Assembly: GCA_020832415.1 (NCBI GenBank)
Contig: JAFIES010000072.1
Span: 1-64,000, forward strand
Length of the DNA stretch: 64,000 nucleotides
Direction of reading: 5' to 3'
Origin: Balneolaceae bacterium
Lineage (GTDB): Bacteria; Bacteroidota; Rhodothermia; Balneolales; Balneolaceae
A program made the translations under genes and the position numbers. The notes under the pieces were generated by a model. That model worked only from the letters and a program-made list of their open reading frames with translations, was not told the DNA's origin and searched no databases. How positions within the stretch are numbered: position 1 is the stretch's first letter; each line of letters opens with the position of its first letter. This document shows, one piece after another, positions 23,352 to 31,318 of this stretch.

Positions 23352-24677
23352 TTAGTATATACCAAGTTTATCAATTCTATGCTGAAATTGTTTAATGGCA
23401 AAATTTAAAAACCACTCTTTTTCAAGGCCAAATGGAACCACATCATACGGTTCGAATATTTCGTGGATTACATTTGTTGCATCATCAAGTAACGTTTCAA
23501 GGTGTTTTTCAAAGGATTCTTTGCAGTGGGGATTGTCCTCCAATAATCGATTTATTAAGTAGAGACCAAAGGCAATGTGGCGGGATTCATCCTGTTTCAG
23601 TTTTATGATTCCTTCCTGTAAACCCGGCAGCAAATTATTCTCGCGCAGCATTTTATGATAGGCTTCATACCCTGTTTCGGCAAGTGTTCCTTCTACAATT
23701 AAGTTGTACGTTCCGGAAGCTTTTAACTGGGCAAGAGGGGAGCTGTCTGAGTAGAGCCTGTTCAGGTCTTCAGGCAGCTGACGGTAGAACAATTTTTTAT
23801 AAAATGGTTTATGAAATCTCTCAAAATCGGGTCGCGTTACCATCACGCTTTTTACAAATCGTGCAAAGAATTCGGTGTGTTTTGCCTCTTCCCATAAAAA
23901 AGAGGTAAGGTAGATCTCCTCCTCAAGTCGACCCTCTTTTGAGAGTGTTTGTATCAATGGCAACAGATCAAGCGTTACAGCTTCTTCACCGGCCATAAAA
24001 AGTGCCGAAAGATGGATGATGATCTCTTTTTCTTCCTCAGAAAATTTCTTCCAATCCTCTTTGTCTTTTTCGAAGCTTATGTCAGCCGGGTCCCAAACTC
24101 CAAGTTTTTTAGATTTTTGAAATAGCTGCATGGGGAAGCTGTCAAAATCAAGCCCGCCTGTTGTTGTTTTGAATGAAGAGTGCTCTTTACGAATACTCAT
24201 TTTTTCAATCTTATTTGATATGAACGGTTCGTCAAGATCAGCTTCTATGTATGCGGGTGCTGTTTGAAGCAGAGCTTTCGCTGCCTCTTTCTGATTTGTA
24301 AGCATCACAAGACTGCCCTTTTCCAGTTTTAAGGCGCCTTTCATGATCATTATAGCCGGATCTTTTTTCAGCTCTATCAGCTTAAGCCAGGTATTCTCAC
24401 TTCCTGCGAGAATGATATCCGTGAGATCTATATCTTTTTCTTGTGCATATCTCAATTCATGGCACTCACCATACTGCAGGTCTAAGAAAAACCCTATGGC
24501 GTCATTTTTTTGAAGAATATCTGAGGGTGGCTCCATTCTTAATAGAACAGATGCATTCCAATCTTTTGCTTTTAAACGATAGAGTTTACTTTCTGCGAGA
24601 TTGTTTTTCCATGACACCATCCATTCTTCCGAAAAGTATCTCTTTGAAGGCGCCTCTTTTTTCTTGTTGAACCACAT
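23352..24677 (-). CDS. R2-like ligand-binding oxidase (R2lox-type) with N-terminal SCP2-like domain
   Basis: C-terminal: GGLDFDSFPMQLFQKSKKLGVWDPADISF, AGEEAVTLDL, WEEAKHTEFF, EGTLAETGYEAYHK, QDESRHIAFG. N-terminal: SENTWLKLIELKKDPAIMIMKGALKLEKGSLVMLTNQKEAAKALL. Confidence 0.85.
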   Translation of the reverse strand: MWFNKKKEAPSKRYFSEEWMVSWKNNLAESKLYRLKAKDWNASVLLRMEPPSDILQKNDAIGFFLDLQYGECHELRYAQEKDIDLTDIILAGSENTWLKLIELKKDPAIMIMKGALKLEKGSLVMLTNQKEAAKALLQTAPAYIEADLDEPFISNKIEKMSIRKEHSSFKTTTGGLDFDSFPMQLFQKSKKLGVWDPADISFEKDKEDWKKFSEEEKEIIIHLSALFMAGEEAVTLDLLPLIQTLSKEGRLEEEIYLTSFLWEEAKHTEFFARFVKSVMVTRPDFERFHKPFYKKLFYRQLPEDLNRLYSDSSPLAQLKASGTYNLIVEGTLAETGYEAYHKMLRENNLLPGLQEGIIKLKQDESRHIAFGLYLINRLLEDNPHCKESFEKHLETLLDDATNVIHEIFEPYDVVPFGLEKEWFLNFAIKQFQHRIDKLGIY

Positions 24678-24845: not shown

Positions 24846-26735
24846 ATGGATAGTATATACCCTGCTTACGATGTTATTGTTGTAGGAGCAGGACACGCCG
24901 GAAGTGAGGCGGCCGGAGCAGCCGCTAAATTAGGCGCAAAAACTCTTCTTATCACCATGAATATGGACGCTATTGCTAAGATGTCCTGTAATCCTGCTAT
25001 GGGTGGTGTTGCAAAAGGCCAGCTTGTTCGAGAGATTGACGCATTGGGTGGTTTGAGTGGTATTGTTAGCGATAAAAGCGGTGTACAGTTCAGAATGCTG
25101 AACAGAAGCAAGGGTCCGGCTATGTGGAGCCCGCGATGCCAGAGTGATCGTATGCTCTATGCGCAGTTGATGAGAGAAGAACTTGAAAAGATTCCAAACC
25201 TCCACTTCAGGCAGGATAATGTGGTGGATATACTAACCGATGATGAGGGTAAAATGGTTAATGGGGTGGTTACTCAAACCGGACAGATGTTCCGTTCTAA
25301 ATCTGTAGTACTTACCAGCGGTACATTTCTGAATGGTATTATTCATATCGGTGAAAGTCAGTACGGAGGGGGACGATCCGGCGAAAGAGCGTCTATTGGT
25401 ATTTCAGCATCACTCGAAAAGCTTGGTTTTGAAATTGGGCGGCTAAAAACGGGTACACCGCCAAGAATAGACGGCCGTTCCATTGATTACACGAAACTGG
25501 AAGTACAGTATGGAGATGAAGAACCCAGTCCGTTCTCTTTTATGACAGATGAATTGCCCGGTGTTGATGAGCAGCTAACTTGCTGGATCGGCTATACAAA
25601 CAGTGACGTTCACGAGACTCTTAAAACAGGTTTTGACCGAAGTCCTATGTTTAATGGCAGAATTAAATCGATCGGACCGCGCTACTGCCCAAGTATAGAG
25701 GATAAAATCAATCGATTTGCCGACAGGGACAGGCATCAGCTCTTTTTAGAGCCGGAAGGGTGGAATACCTATGAAATGTATCTGAACGGATTTAGCACAT
25801 CACTCCCTGAAGATGTTCAATATCATGCACTGAGGACCATTCCCGGATTTGAGAAAGCTGTGATGCTTCGCCCGGGTTATGCTATTGAATATGATTATTT
25901 TCCGCCATATCAAATTAAGCGAAGTCTCGAAACAAAGCGTGTAAACGGACTCTTCTTTGCGGGGCAAATTAACGGCACTACAGGATATGAAGAGGCTGCG
26001 TGCCAGGGATTGATGGCAGGAATTAATTCTGCGCTTCTTGTGCAGGAAAAAGAACCTTTCGTTCTCAAGCGTTCTGAAGCATACATTGGTGTATTGGTAG
26101 ATGACCTTATAAATAAAGGTACTGAAGAGCCTTACAGAATGTTTACTTCAAGGGCAGAACACAGAATACTACTTCGCCAGGACAATGCAGATCTTCGCCT
26201 TACCGAGCTGGGCAGGAAAATTGGATTGGCAGATGAAGAGCGATACAACAGGTATGTAAAAAAGAAGAGTGAAATCGACCGGCTTTATGATTTGATCAGT
26301 GATTACACGGTTCGTCCTGAAAAGATGGATTCTATGCTGCTTGAAAAAGGTACAACGGTTCTAAGCCAGCCCGTAAAAGCGAAATCCTTAATACCGAGAC
26401 CGGAAATTCACCTGCAAGATCTGCTTGATGCGGATGATGAGCTGAACGAGAAAGTAGAAGTAATCACAAAAAGCCGAGATGTTATTGAGCAAGTAGAAAT
26501 TCAGGTTAAGTATGATGGCTACATACAGCGGGAATTCGAAATGGTTAAAGAGCTAAGCCGACAGGAAAACACCAGAATTCCCGAAAAGCTTGATTATGAG
26601 AAGATTAAGAGCCTTTCAAACGAGGGAAAAAGCAAACTCGATAAGATTAAACCGGAAACCATAGGTCAGGCATCGAGAATCAGCGGGGTATCCGCAAGTG
26701 ACTTAGCGGTTCTTATGGTCTATTTGAAAGGGTAG
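24846..26735 (+). CDS. mnmG: tRNA uridine-5-carboxymethylaminomethyl modification enzyme MnmG
   Basis: [83 protein letters not shown]. Confidence 0.97.
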
Positions 26736-27383
26736 GTGTTTCACGTGAAACAAAATATTATTAAAAAGCAGATAGATGCTGAGGTGCTAAAATCAGCAAG
26801 AGAAATTTATAAAATCAATGAAGGAAAACTTGAGCAGTATATAGACCTGCTTCTCAGTTGGAATGAAAAAATTAACCTGGTGAGCCGTACTGTTTCACGT
26901 GAAACGGTGAGAGAACATGTTATTCATTCATTGATTCCGGTAGCATTAAATATCGTAGATACCCATAAAAACTGGATCGATGCAGGTTCCGGTGGTGGTC
27001 TTCCGGGTATTCCATTGGCCATCTGTTGCGAGAATTCAAAGTGGATATTGAATGATAACGTAAAGAAAAAAATGAGGGCTGCTGATGATATCATTCAGGG
27101 GCTCGGGTTGAAAAATGCCGGCACCGCAGCGAAAAGTATTTCGCTAATTGATATAAAGCGGGGGACAGGAATTGTTACAAAGCATGCCTTTAAAATTGAG
27201 GACCTGTTGCGCCTGCTCAATAAAAAACCGTGGGAAAAAATCATTATGTGGAAGGGTGCAGTCGATGCTGAAAATGAGATTCGCAGATCCAAAAAAAGAA
27301 TAAAAGCTCAAATTTTGGAGTTCAGCTTTGGCGCTGAAGAGTCTTTTTATGAGGGTAAGGCTATTGTAGTGATAGAAAAATAG
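26736..27383 (+). CDS. rsmG: 16S rRNA (guanine527-N7)-methyltransferase RsmG (GTG start)
   Basis: YIDLLLSWNEKINLVSRTVSRETVREHVIHSLIPV, WIDAGSGGGLPGIPLAI. Confidence 0.93.
   Translation: MFHVKQNIIKKQIDAEVLKSAREIYKINEGKLEQYIDLLLSWNEKINLVSRTVSRETVREHVIHSLIPVALNIVDTHKNWIDAGSGGGLPGIPLAICCENSKWILNDNVKKKMRAADDIIQGLGLKNAGTAAKSISLIDIKRGTGIVTKHAFKIEDLLRLLNKKPWEKIIMWKGAVDAENEIRRSKKRIKAQILEFSFGAEESFYEGKAIVVIEK
26737..26752. promoter_or_regulatory. parS-type ParB binding site 1
   Basis: TGTTTCACGTGAAACA, perfect 16-bp palindrome identical to the classical parS consensus. Confidence 0.88.
26891..26906. promoter_or_regulatory. parS-type ParB binding site 2
   Basis: TGTTTCACGTGAAACG, 15/16 match to the same palindrome, inside rsmG. 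Confidence 0.82.
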
Positions 27384-27421
27384 CCGGAGTTTTAATTCGC
27401 ACCCTGATAGAAAGTATTTAT

Positions 27422-27652
27422 TTTAGCGTAAGTTCGATATAACATTTAAAAGAATCGCCAGTTAGAGCGCAGTCCCGACGCTTTTCAGGAGGGTCGAAGT
27501 CGCTCATTTTCTGAACACGAAGTGAAAACTCATATATCGCTCCGCGTGCAAAAGATGAGCGACTTCTCCCGATTGAACTGCATCGGGATGCGCTCAATAT
27601 GACGGGCTCAGTCATATAATTCATTTTTATTTCGAACTCACGTTATTTTAGC
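27422..27652. repeat. Nested inverted-repeat intergenic element (MITE/palindromic-repeat-like)
   Basis: Outer arms TTTAGCGTAAGTTCGATATAA / TTATTTCGAACTCACGTTATTTTA; inner arms GAGCGCAGTCCCGACGC...GAAGTCGCTCAT (27465-27507) and ATGAGCGACTTC...GCATCGGGATGCGCTC (27555-27595). Confidence 0.75.
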
Positions 27653-27721
27653 ATAGAATCAAGTGCTGCTTATCGATTATTTGCGCACAAAAAAACCGGA
27701 ACAGAAACCAACAATAAAGCG

Positions 27722-28681
27722 ATGTCAAGACTAAAAAGCTCAGAACGAAGGATGAAACTCATCCTGAAACTTCAGCAATCAAAAGAGAGAATAACTGCGG
27801 ACAAACTGGCCCGTGAATTTGGAGTAAGCAGGAGAACTATCTTTAGAGATTTCAACGCTTTATCTGAAGTTGAGGTGCCCGTTACATGGGATGAATACCG
27901 TGGTTATGGAATTATGGAGGGATATTCCGTCCCTCCACTTATGTTCAATCAAAAAGAACTGGCCACTATACTGGTTGGGCTTAATTTTGTGAAATCACAA
28001 GTTGATAAAAACCTGATTGATGACGCAAAGGGTGTGGAGCTGAAAATTAAAAATGCACTGCCAAAAGAGCTGAAGGCATACATGGAGTCTTTGGATAACA
28101 AAACCATTGTTGATCCATTTCTTCATTTTGGCCATGAAAAGAAAGAGGGTGGAAATTGGTATGCATTAAGCAATGCGATTTCCGAAAGGCGAACAATTAC
28201 TTTTGAGTATAAAAGCCAGAGCGATTCAAAGGTGGCGGAAAGAAAAGTGGATCCATATCTGTTGGTCTTTTATCGCGACCATTGGAACATGATCGGATTT
28301 TCACACAAAAGAGACGCCATTCGGAATTTTGTGCTCGATAGAATGAAAAATGTCAAAATTTTGGACCAAAATTTTGAAGAGAAGGAAAATATCAACGCAG
28401 AGGGCTTAATTTTTAGATCTAACGAATTAGGAACGGATGTAAAGGTACTAGTCGATAAAAGCGCCGATCGTGCGTTTAGGGCCAATTTGCCAACGAAGAT
28501 ATTTAAGGAATCGGCCGAAAATAATAAAAAAATTAAAGTTTGGTTCCGTTTTGAAAATCTTGGCTTTTTGAATGAGTGGTTGCTGCAGTTCGGAAACAGA
28601 GTGAAAATTCTCGGGCCGAAAGAGCTTATCAAAAAAAGAGAGGAGTTATTGAGGGAGATGTTAGATCAACAAGCCGGCTGA
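27722..28681 (+). CDS. HTH + WYL-domain transcriptional regulator (YafY-type)
   Basis: ITADKLAREFGVSRRTIFRDFNALSEVEVPV; ISERRTITFEYKSQSDSKVAERKVDPYLLVFYRDHWNMIGFSHKRDAIRNFVLDRM. Confidence 0.9.
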   Translation: MSRLKSSERRMKLILKLQQSKERITADKLAREFGVSRRTIFRDFNALSEVEVPVTWDEYRGYGIMEGYSVPPLMFNQKELATILVGLNFVKSQVDKNLIDDAKGVELKIKNALPKELKAYMESLDNKTIVDPFLHFGHEKKEGGNWYALSNAISERRTITFEYKSQSDSKVAERKVDPYLLVFYRDHWNMIGFSHKRDAIRNFVLDRMKNVKILDQNFEEKENINAEGLIFRSNELGTDVKVLVDKSADRAFRANLPTKIFKESAENNKKIKVWFRFENLGFLNEWLLQFGNRVKILGPKELIKKREELLREMLDQQAG

Positions 28682-28939: not shown

Positions 28940-29941
28940 CTATTTTTTAAAAAGTTTCACCAAAACTTTTCCAACCTGTTTTCCTTCCAATATTTTCTGA
29001 AACTCTCCCGGCAAATCTGTTAATGATATTTCCCTTGAGATTTTTTGCATGTTCGGCAACTTCCAGTCAGTTGATAGTTTGTGCCAAATGGTTTTACGAA
29101 GTTCCATGAGTGCTATACCTGAATCGATACCCGCCAACGTGATGCCTCGCAATATAAATGGAAGAATGGATGTTTGAAGTTCATTTCCGAGGACGTTTCC
29201 ACAGCATGCAACGATTCCATTGTGCTCAGTTTGCCTTAAAACGGCATCAAGCATGTTGCCGCCTACAGTGTCCAGTGAGGCATTCCATTTTCCGGATAGC
29301 ATTGGCCGGTCGGTCACATTATTAATATTATCTCTGTGAACAACTTCTTTCGCACCAATGGATGTAAGAAATTCTGTTTGATCAACTTTTCCGGTTGCAG
29401 CTGTAACATTAATATTCAGATGGGATAACAGAGCAACAGCGAATGAACCAACTGCTCCGGTGGCCCCGGTTACAAGTACATTTATATCATTTGAAAGGAA
29501 AGGGTGAGTGATGATCTTGTGGACTCCAATACCTGCCGTTAATCCGGACGTGCCAATCATCATACTCTCTTTAAGTGTGAGGTTTGAAGGCAGCGGCACA
29601 ATCCACTCAGCAGGAACAGAAATAAATTGTCCAAATCCGCCCGGAGTATTCATACCAAGATCATAACTGGTTACAATTACTTTATCATCAGTTTTAAAAT
29701 CAGGCGATTTACTATTCACAACTACACCTGCGGCATCGATACCGGGGGTGAAAGGATACTGTTTGGTAACTCCTTTATGACCTGTTGCTGAAAGTGCATC
29801 TTTGTAGTTGAGTGAAGAGTAGTGAACCCTGATGAGTACATAATTATCCGGCAAATCTTTAATAAAATACTCTTTTACAGATTGAGTAAAAATTCCATTA
29901 AACTCTTCTGCTACAATAGCTTGATAAGAATTATTCTCCAT
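28940..29941 (-). CDS. YhdH/YhfP-family quinone oxidoreductase (acrylyl-CoA reductase-like)
   Basis: HYSSLNYKDALSATGHKGVTKQYPFTPGIDAAGVV; VTGATGAVGSFAVALLSHL. Confidence 0.9.
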   Translation of the reverse strand: MENNSYQAIVAEEFNGIFTQSVKEYFIKDLPDNYVLIRVHYSSLNYKDALSATGHKGVTKQYPFTPGIDAAGVVVNSKSPDFKTDDKVIVTSYDLGMNTPGGFGQFISVPAEWIVPLPSNLTLKESMMIGTSGLTAGIGVHKIITHPFLSNDINVLVTGATGAVGSFAVALLSHLNINVTAATGKVDQTEFLTSIGAKEVVHRDNINNVTDRPMLSGKWNASLDTVGGNMLDAVLRQTEHNGIVACCGNVLGNELQTSILPFILRGITLAGIDSGIALMELRKTIWHKLSTDWKLPNMQKISREISLTDLPGEFQKILEGKQVGKVLVKLFKK

Positions 29942-29947
29942 TACTAA

Positions 29948-31318
29948 CTATTTTATAAACAATCGTTTGAACCATTTTAATTTTGTATCGTTATAAGGCG
30001 GATAACGAACATCAGGGTCGGGCCAGGATGGCTTTTTTAAGATTCCCTGTTCCCGGCTAAATGTATTAAAACTGTATTTGCCGCGATAGGATCCCATTCC
30101 GCTGTAGCCGGTCCCCCCATATGGAAGATTGTGATTTCCTAAATGGCTGATTGTGTCATTTACACACCCACCGCCAAACGGTACGTTTTCAATGATGAAA
30201 TCCTGAAACTCTTTGTTTTCTGTAAACATGTAGAGTGCAAGCGGGGCAGACATACTGTTCATCAATTGAGGAATATCTTTTTCATCATCATATGTAAGCA
30301 GCGGTAGTAGTGGGCCGAAAATTTCTTCCTTCATAATTTCATCTTCCCAGTTTGCATCAATCAAAGTAGGCTCAATAAATCTCGATTGTTTGTTGGTTAA
30401 ACCGCCATGAATCACTTTGCTCTTATTCAATAATTCATTCAATCTATTAAAGTGATCATCATTCACAATTCGGGTGTAGTTTTTACCCACCTGAAAATCG
30501 TTTTGAAAAAATGATGAAAGAACATTTTTCGACGTTTGAATAAATTGCTCCTTAATCGATTTGTGCACCAAAACATAATCGGGAGCTACACAAGTTTGGC
30601 CTGCATTGATGGTTTTTCCCCACCAGATACGGTTTACACTAACTTCAATATTTGCATCTTCATGCACAATCGCAGGGCTTTTCCCTCCAAGTTCAAGAGT
30701 AACCGGAGTTAAATTCTCAGCGGCTGCTTTCATAACAATTTTCCCAACCCGGCTGCTTCCGGTGAAAAATATGTGATCGAAAGGCTGTTCTAAAAGTTCT
30801 GTTGTCTCCTCAACGCCACCTTCTGCAACAGCTAAAATTTCCGGTTTGAAATATCTGTCAAATAACTCTTTTAATTTTGCTGACGTGACTGGGGCCAATT
30901 CTGAGGGTTTTAGAATAGCGGTATTTCCTGCTGAAATAGCTCCAATTAAAGGCATCAGGCTCAGGTGAACCGGATAATTCCATGCACCAATAACCAAAAT
31001 AGTACCCTTTGGTTGTTGATAGATTATGTTTTTAGATGGGAATGTAACAATAGGTCCGCCAACAGAAACAGGTTTAATCCATGTTGAAAGATTTTTTAAA
31101 TGGTAATCTATCTCATCAAGAAGTGTATAAATTTCAGTGATATACGATTCTATATAAGGCTTTCCGAAATCTTCATTGATTGCATCGCAAAGTTCCTTTT
31201 CATGCCTGTAAATTAACTTACGTAATTGATTTAGACTGCTTTCTCGTGATTTTAACGATCGGGTGCGGCCATCGAGAAAAGCGGCCTTCTGATCTTTTAC
31301 TAATTGCATTAACTTCAT
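29948..31318 (-). CDS. Aldehyde dehydrogenase family protein
   Basis: FFTGSSRVGKIVMKAAAENLTPVTLELGGKSPAIVHEDA; NAGQTCVAPDYVLV. Confidence 0.93.
   Translation of the reverse strand: MKLMQLVKDQKAAFLDGRTRSLKSRESSLNQLRKLIYRHEKELCDAINEDFGKPYIESYITEIYTLLDEIDYHLKNLSTWIKPVSVGGPIVTFPSKNIIYQQPKGTILVIGAWNYPVHLSLMPLIGAISAGNTAILKPSELAPVTSAKLKELFDRYFKPEILAVAEGGVEETTELLEQPFDHIFFTGSSRVGKIVMKAAAENLTPVTLELGGKSPAIVHEDANIEVSVNRIWWGKTINAGQTCVAPDYVLVHKSIKEQFIQTSKNVLSSFFQNDFQVGKNYTRIVNDDHFNRLNELLNKSKVIHGGLTNKQSRFIEPTLIDANWEDEIMKEEIFGPLLPLLTYDDEKDIPQLMNSMSAPLALYMFTENKEFQDFIIENVPFGGGCVNDTISHLGNHNLPYGGTGYSGMGSYRGKYSFNTFSREQGILKKPSWPDPDVRYPPYNDTKLKWFKRLFIK

Follow-up and report, generated by a model that had tools for sequence, protein, structure and literature searches.

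An SCP2-fold domain fused to an R2-like ligand-binding oxidase in Balneolaceae, and the recurrent association of SCP2 proteins with this oxidase in other bacteria

Background

R2-like ligand-binding oxidases (R2lox) are one of the few groups of Mn/Fe enzymes, and GkR2loxI of Geobacillus (4hr0) as well as the R2lox of Mtb (3ee4) and Sulfolobus acidocaldarius (6qrz) are stand-alone proteins. A long-chain fatty acid is bound at the metal site of R2lox and is presumed to be a look-alike of the substrate acquired during overproduction (PMC6399176, PMC4118035), being held in a channel of the protein (PMC6399176), while the physiological substrate is described as unknown (PMC4118035, PMC6399176). The gene encoding GkR2loxI is clustered with genes for an alcohol dehydrogenase (ADH) and an aldehyde dehydrogenase (ALDH), and the protein has been reported to be an alkane hydroxylase, based on alkane degradation by crude lysates, an activity of which a mutant altered in two ligands retained the greater part (PMC10867098).

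Proteins of the SCP2 fold may also stand alone, as do the TT1886-type SCP2 proteins of Thermus (1wfr, 2cx7). In human MFE-2 and in the thiolase SCP-x, a catalytic domain is combined with an SCP2-fold domain, and both proteins have long-chain substrates. The alkylsulfatases SdsA1, Pisa1 and SdsAP, which also act on long-chain substrates, consist of a catalytic domain followed by a C-terminal SCP-2-like domain (PMC5426288), and in the UbiJ/UbiK system an SCP2 domain is proposed to accommodate the hydrophobic tails of ubiquinone intermediates for the group of Ubi hydroxylases (PMC9499169). In the open-access literature that we searched, which is an incomplete sample, no paper was found that pairs R2lox with a sterol carrier or a sterol. 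Both parts of the protein described here belong to known families, but neither their fusion nor their recurrent partnership is reported in that literature.

The fusion gene and its SCP2 domain

The window, that is, the whole stretch of 64,000 nucleotides of Balneolaceae DNA analysed here, carries on its minus strand an uninterrupted open reading frame of 441 codons, with the ATG at 24677 and the stop codon at 23354-23352 (Table 1); no long ORF was found on the plus strand of 23352-24677. A previous sequence-only reading, which gave no strand, had suggested that an SCP2-like part and an R2lox part are joined in one protein, and the fusion is confirmed as real: the product (P0001) comprises an SCP2 fold, a linker of 23 residues and an R2lox domain, in this order. 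The protein is the sole match of its kind in its own genome, and many of its Balneolaceae orthologues have an equal length and an equal start.

Table 1. Features of the fusion gene and its product in the window (residue numbers refer to P0001)
Feature	Position	Strand	Basis
SCP2-R2lox fusion gene	23352..24677	(-)	441 aa, P0001; one open frame from ATG to stop
SCP2-fold lipid-carrier domain, residues ~10-142	24252..24650	(-)	Profile against 1wfr/2cx7; Foldseek 2cx7; model pLDDT 88.6 (domain modelled alone)
Linker, residues 143-165	24183..24251	(-)	Length and sequence differ between orthologues; disorder predicted
R2lox domain, residues 166-440	23358..24182	(-)	NF006202, E 3.2e-104; Foldseek 6f65/4hr0 family, TM (target) 0.83-0.95
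Glu231, metal ligand (E69 of GkR2loxI)	23985..23987	(-)	Ungapped alignment to 4hr0; invariant column
Val234, cross-link valine (V72 of GkR2loxI), in AGEEAV	23976..23978	(-)	Alignment to 4hr0; invariant
Glu264, metal ligand (E102 of GkR2loxI)	23886..23888	(-)	Alignment to 4hr0
His267, metal ligand (H105 of GkR2loxI)	23877..23879	(-)	Alignment to 4hr0
Tyr324, cross-link tyrosine (Y162 of GkR2loxI), in GTYNLIVEGT	23706..23708	(-)	Alignment to 4hr0; invariant
Glu329, metal ligand (E167 of GkR2loxI)	23691..23693	(-)	Alignment to 4hr0
Tyr337, cavity-lining tyrosine (Y175 of GkR2loxI), in ETGYEAY	23667..23669	(-)	Alignment to 4hr0
Glu364, metal ligand (E202 of GkR2loxI)	23586..23588	(-)	Alignment to 4hr0
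His367, metal ligand (H205 of GkR2loxI)	23577..23579	(-)	Alignment to 4hr0

The Pfam SCP2 model (PF02036) gives the protein 19.9-20.0 bits, just under the gathering cut-off of 21.3, whereas some relatives exceed this cut-off (26.9 and 25.4 bits) and 20 of the 24 members of the N-domain family match the model at E 0.01. A phmmer search with the protein recovered the solved SCP2 proteins of Thermus (1wfr, E 1.1e-11; 2cx7, E 1.9e-11), which the N-domain family profile detects at E 1.2e-35 and 3.1e-35, respectively, with no other PDB match up to E 0.01. Foldseek comparison of the N-domain model placed 2cx7 at the top (E 1.2e-10, TM 0.75/0.82), followed by further SCP2 entries, among them UbiJ and the SCP2-like domain found in alkylsulfatases. 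The suggestion that the N-terminal ~150 residues are SCP2-like is thus borne out by homology searches as well as by a confident model. The Thermus proteins share both subfamily and fold with the N-domain, but they are stand-alone, and the related lone SCP2 proteins found in our survey of Chloroflexota are not near R2lox. The SCP2-tailed enzymes, for their part, have another catalytic domain and carry at their C-terminus an SCP2 part that is no close relative of the one described here. In close pairs of orthologues, dN/dS was ~0.09-0.11 for the SCP2 domain and ~0.03-0.09 for R2lox, low values which indicate that both domains are maintained as protein; to judge from these ratios, purifying selection acts on the SCP2 domain.

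In an AlphaFold2 prediction based on 40 sequences (mean pLDDT 87.4, pTM 0.70), pLDDT falls below 50 only at residues 1-9 and 145-161, and the stretch between residues 142 and 175 ranges from 29 to 60 aa among orthologues. Because the linker is disordered and variable in length, the placement of the two domains relative to each other, and any channel leading from SCP2 to the metal site, cannot be read from the model; the prediction thus provides two well-formed folds and no fixed docking between them. Such a flexible linker would also suit a docking or stability module, in which SCP2 anchors R2lox to the membrane or to partners, or stabilises it, and carries no lipid, and SCP2 domains can indeed make contact with membranes, for which UbiJ provides a modelled example (PMC9499169). 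However, the SCP2 fold and its invariant residues are retained in the family, and the existence of a separate SCP2 gene beside R2lox in other bacteria, as well as the presence of another SCP2 subfamily there in Actinobacteria (see below), suggests selection for lipid binding, so that we consider a docking role unlikely.

The R2lox domain and its active site

The C-terminal ~270 residues had been recognised as R2lox from their motifs, and this assignment holds. The NCBIfam model 'R2-like ligand-binding oxidase' (NF006202) gives 348 bits against a cut-off of 315, the PDB matches include 6qrz and 4hr0 at E ~1e-64, and in the Foldseek search with the whole model R2lox structures rank first, the R2 proteins of ribonucleotide reductase (RNR) being much weaker matches. 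Residues 165-401 align to GkR2loxI without gaps, which allowed the residues named for that protein (PMC10867098; V72 and Y162 are also named in PMC6399176) to be placed by a single offset. All six metal ligands, four Glu and two His, are found at the R2lox positions in a matching ferritin-like fold, and the metal centre is probably a dinuclear Mn/Fe site. G68, A171 and Y175 of GkR2loxI correspond to G230, A333 and Y337, and the mapped metal, cross-link and cavity residues are invariant or nearly so across 40 sequences, with V234 and Y324 strictly invariant. The tyrosine of the ETGYEAY motif had earlier been placed in the context of the cross-link, which proved to be a misassignment: Y337 is the equivalent of Y175, which lines the ligand cavity (PMC4118035), and the ether cross-link tyrosine is Y324, paired with V234.

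The fold, the six ligands, the V234/Y324 pair and G230/A333/Y337 are therefore common to this protein and the stand-alone R2lox, which differ from it in lacking the ~165 N-terminal residues that include SCP2. The R2lox part of the Balneolaceae fusions also stops (23352-23380 in the window) ~20 residues before that of several stand-alone R2lox and of the Calditrichota and KSB1 forms, with the C-terminal tail being absent; in one structure of Mtb R2lox (4ac8) a C-terminal helix is organised.

Since the Pfam domain is named Ribonuc_red_sm, the protein could be taken for an RNR small subunit with an odd extension. This is hardly conceivable, given that RNR models reach at most 45 bits, far below their cut-off and far below the R2lox models, that the only RNR large chain found in the genome reads by eye, from its C-terminal Cys motif, as class II, and that no second R2-like gene was found in this genome. 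A class I small subunit was ruled out on the same scores and on the structural match to R2lox. In this assembly the gene of the RNR large chain (contig C146 of genome G000) is broken by an in-frame TAA (1714-1716 of L144).

Distribution and origin of the fusion

The N-terminal extension is not restricted to one sequence: as the homologue survey proposed in the sequence-only reading revealed, it is widely conserved and recurs across several phyla. Over 25 genomes from Balneolia/Bacteroidota, Calditrichota, KSB1 and Gemmatimonadota encode the fusion, as does a single Chloroflexota genome, with two-domain orthologues sharing 50-84% identity in Balneolaceae and relatives and 42-45% in Calditrichota, KSB1 and Gemmatimonadota. 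A clear R2lox was detected in 24 of the 397 genomes of the phylum survey, being fused in 19, next to a separate SCP2 gene in one and without an SCP2 match in four. In the Chloroflexota survey a single genome out of 251 (G894) has the fusion, and the same SCP2 subfamily is common there as a lone gene away from R2lox.

The R2lox tree resolves the fused proteins into a Balneolia clade of 26 members (100/100), a trio from Calditrichota, KSB1 and Gemmatimonadota (94/96) and the protein of G894, and one origin of all fusions with later splitting was not rejected (p-AU 0.33). A single fusion event would be in keeping with a genomic accident, in which neighbouring genes of unrelated roles became joined. 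Against this, the linkage recurs in fused, adjoining and ADH-separated arrangements, and a further time with another SCP2 subfamily (see below), and in the SCP2 tree twenty lone genes of the Chloroflexota survey and the Thermus protein group apart from the R2lox-linked SCP2s of Bacilli and Balneolia, which makes an accident very unlikely. Two lone SCP2 genes from the class of the window and one from Bacilli sit among the fused or linked groups of this tree.

Upstream of the fusion, and divergent from it, mnmG, rsmG and a gene for a WYL-domain HTH regulator (24846-28681, plus strand) are found in an order that is kept in most Balneolaceae loci, these loci having no conserved dehydrogenase gene beside the fused one. 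Further upstream, 4-7 kb from the fusion, the window contains a pair of minus-strand genes, one (28940-29941) for an MDR-type zinc-binding dehydrogenase and the other (29948-31318) for an aldehyde dehydrogenase, a pair which recalls the Bacilli clusters described below, although mnmG, rsmG and the WYL gene intervene on the opposite strand. A link between the fusion and this pair was not supported, since relatives whose loci reach past the WYL gene carry other genes there. Acyl-CoA dehydrogenase genes lie directly downstream of the fusion in KSB1 and Balneolales loci (L028 2725-4485, AidB-type; L019 3724-4887).

SCP2 and R2lox as separate neighbouring genes

In two Ignavibacteriales-like loci and in genome G070 an SCP2 gene runs directly into the R2lox gene, with 14-15 bp between the domains. 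Among 346 genomes of Bacilli, the class of Alicyclobacillus, 13 of the 14 SCP2 genes of the fused subfamily are located within 1.2 kb of R2lox, some adjoining it and others one gene away; wherever the intervening gene was identified, it encodes a zinc alcohol dehydrogenase, and in many of these ADH-separated loci an aldehyde dehydrogenase gene follows R2lox. In relatives of Alicyclobacillus the order is SCP2 - zinc ADH - R2lox - ALDH - ABC1 kinase.

Many R2lox genes, including those of Ktedonobacteria, Thermogemmatispora and Geobacillus-like bacteria, have no SCP2 gene of the fused subfamily nearby, and the carrier is therefore not required by all R2lox. Among the small ORFs near these remaining genes at most one of 62 could match Pfam SCP2, and SCP2 was absent among the ORF families with at least two members, so these genes seem to be without a near SCP2. 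In locus L109 a hidden SCP2 upstream of R2lox was considered and rejected, given that the upstream frame has no SCP2 match and looks spurious. No SCP2 was found in the Geobacillus-like R2loxI loci L101 and L102, both of which contain an ALDH gene, with an iron-type ADH gene in L101.

A second SCP2 subfamily was found beside R2lox in Actinobacteria. The R2lox cluster of Rhodococcus plasmids encodes an NDMA-dependent ADH, an FAD oxidoreductase, a ferredoxin, R2lox, an ALDH, an annotated SCP2 protein and a fatty-acid-CoA ligase, and in R. opacus B4 the whole cluster forms one run on one strand. This SCP2 protein exceeds the Pfam cut-off (22.1 bits), but it is not matched by the SCP2 profile of the fused subfamily; belonging thus to a different subfamily, it suggests two or more separate recruitments of an SCP2 carrier to R2lox. 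In plasmids of Mycobacterium intracellulare and M. avium, whose R2lox clusters also include genes for an acyl-CoA ligase and an NDMA-dependent ADH, a 136-aa 'hypothetical protein' encoded directly after R2lox (L147 7140-7550, L151 7140-7550) is 60-63% identical to the Rhodococcus SCP2. In Rhodococcus sp. 008 this ADH-reductase-ferredoxin-R2lox run is likewise present, with no SCP2 gene in the stretch examined. The genes for the ferredoxin FdxA and the FAD oxidoreductase directly adjoin R2lox in Rhodococcus plasmids (L146 4594-5948, L150 7058-8435).

The position of SCP2 in these clusters bears on whether it handles the substrate or the product of R2lox. As a product carrier, SCP2 would remove the hydroxylated product from R2lox and pass it to dehydrogenases or to the membrane, in agreement with the location of the SCP2 gene directly before that of the alcohol dehydrogenase expected to act on the product in several Bacilli clusters, and between the ALDH and acyl-CoA ligase genes in Rhodococcus. 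Nevertheless, fusions were seen only to R2lox and none to a dehydrogenase, and the Balneolaceae fusions have no conserved dehydrogenase gene beside them; a product carrier is accordingly regarded as improbable.

Proposed role of the SCP2 domain

We consider it fairly probable that SCP2 serves as a tethered or partner carrier from which R2lox receives a long aliphatic molecule to hydroxylate, the product being oxidised to an acid afterwards. The hydrophobic SCP2 cavity would bind a long-chain aliphatic molecule (an alkane, a fatty acyl compound or similar) from the membrane or the cytosol and, with the disordered linker acting as a flexible tether, present it to the hydrophobic channel of R2lox, where the metal site would activate O2 and hydroxylate the molecule. 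In the lineages with separate genes, the resulting alcohol could pass through the alcohol dehydrogenase, the aldehyde dehydrogenase and the acyl-CoA ligase of the same cluster. Electrons may come from the FAD reductase and the ferredoxin where these are encoded, and the FAD oxidoreductase and FdxA of Rhodococcus are plausible donors to R2lox. Since the clusters supply the requirements of a monooxygenase that cycles repeatedly, namely a reductase, a ferredoxin, enzymes leading from the alcohol to acyl-CoA and a carrier able to handle a water-insoluble substrate, delivery by SCP2 is the favoured reading. Substrate delivery had already been put forward in the sequence-only reading, and the recurrence of the two genes in fused, adjoining and ADH-separated form, and with a second subfamily, speaks for it, while lipid binding, the direction of transfer, a channel between the domains, the hydroxylation and the kind of substrate are inferred.

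The physical or genetic coupling of a carrier to R2lox in several phyla points to a substrate that is long, hydrophobic and delivered by a carrier. The partnership thereby makes the question of the R2lox substrate testable, with the lipids bound by the SCP2 domain as a handle for finding it. Furthermore, clusters containing ADH, ALDH, reductase, ferredoxin and acyl-CoA ligase genes suggest a complete terminal-oxidation pathway, which would be open to genetic tests in Rhodococcus or Alicyclobacillus, both of which can be cultured.

A gene for an ABC1-family kinase (Pfam E 4.9e-44) is present in 10 of 16 SCP2-linked loci, all ten from Bacilli, compared with 1 of 25 R2lox loci without SCP2. This atypical kinase of the UbiB/COQ8 family adjoins the SCP2-R2lox clusters of L037, L092-L094, L096-L100 and L110. 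Tentatively, and with clearly more reserve than for delivery itself, we postulate that SCP2 and R2lox, often with the ABC1 kinase, could form a general module that presents lipids for hydroxylation and was put together on more than one occasion in evolution; it would extract a membrane-dissolved hydrocarbon or lipid and oxidise it at the Mn/Fe site, the carrier being hard-wired in Balneolia. Such a module would parallel the logic of UbiJ/UbiB and of COQ9-COQ7-COQ8 in ubiquinone synthesis, even though UbiJ/UbiK form a non-covalent complex with a different SCP2 subfamily and different hydroxylases, and a quinone link was not seen here. A protein of ~110-140 aa also recurs beside several of the Bacilli SCP2-R2lox clusters.
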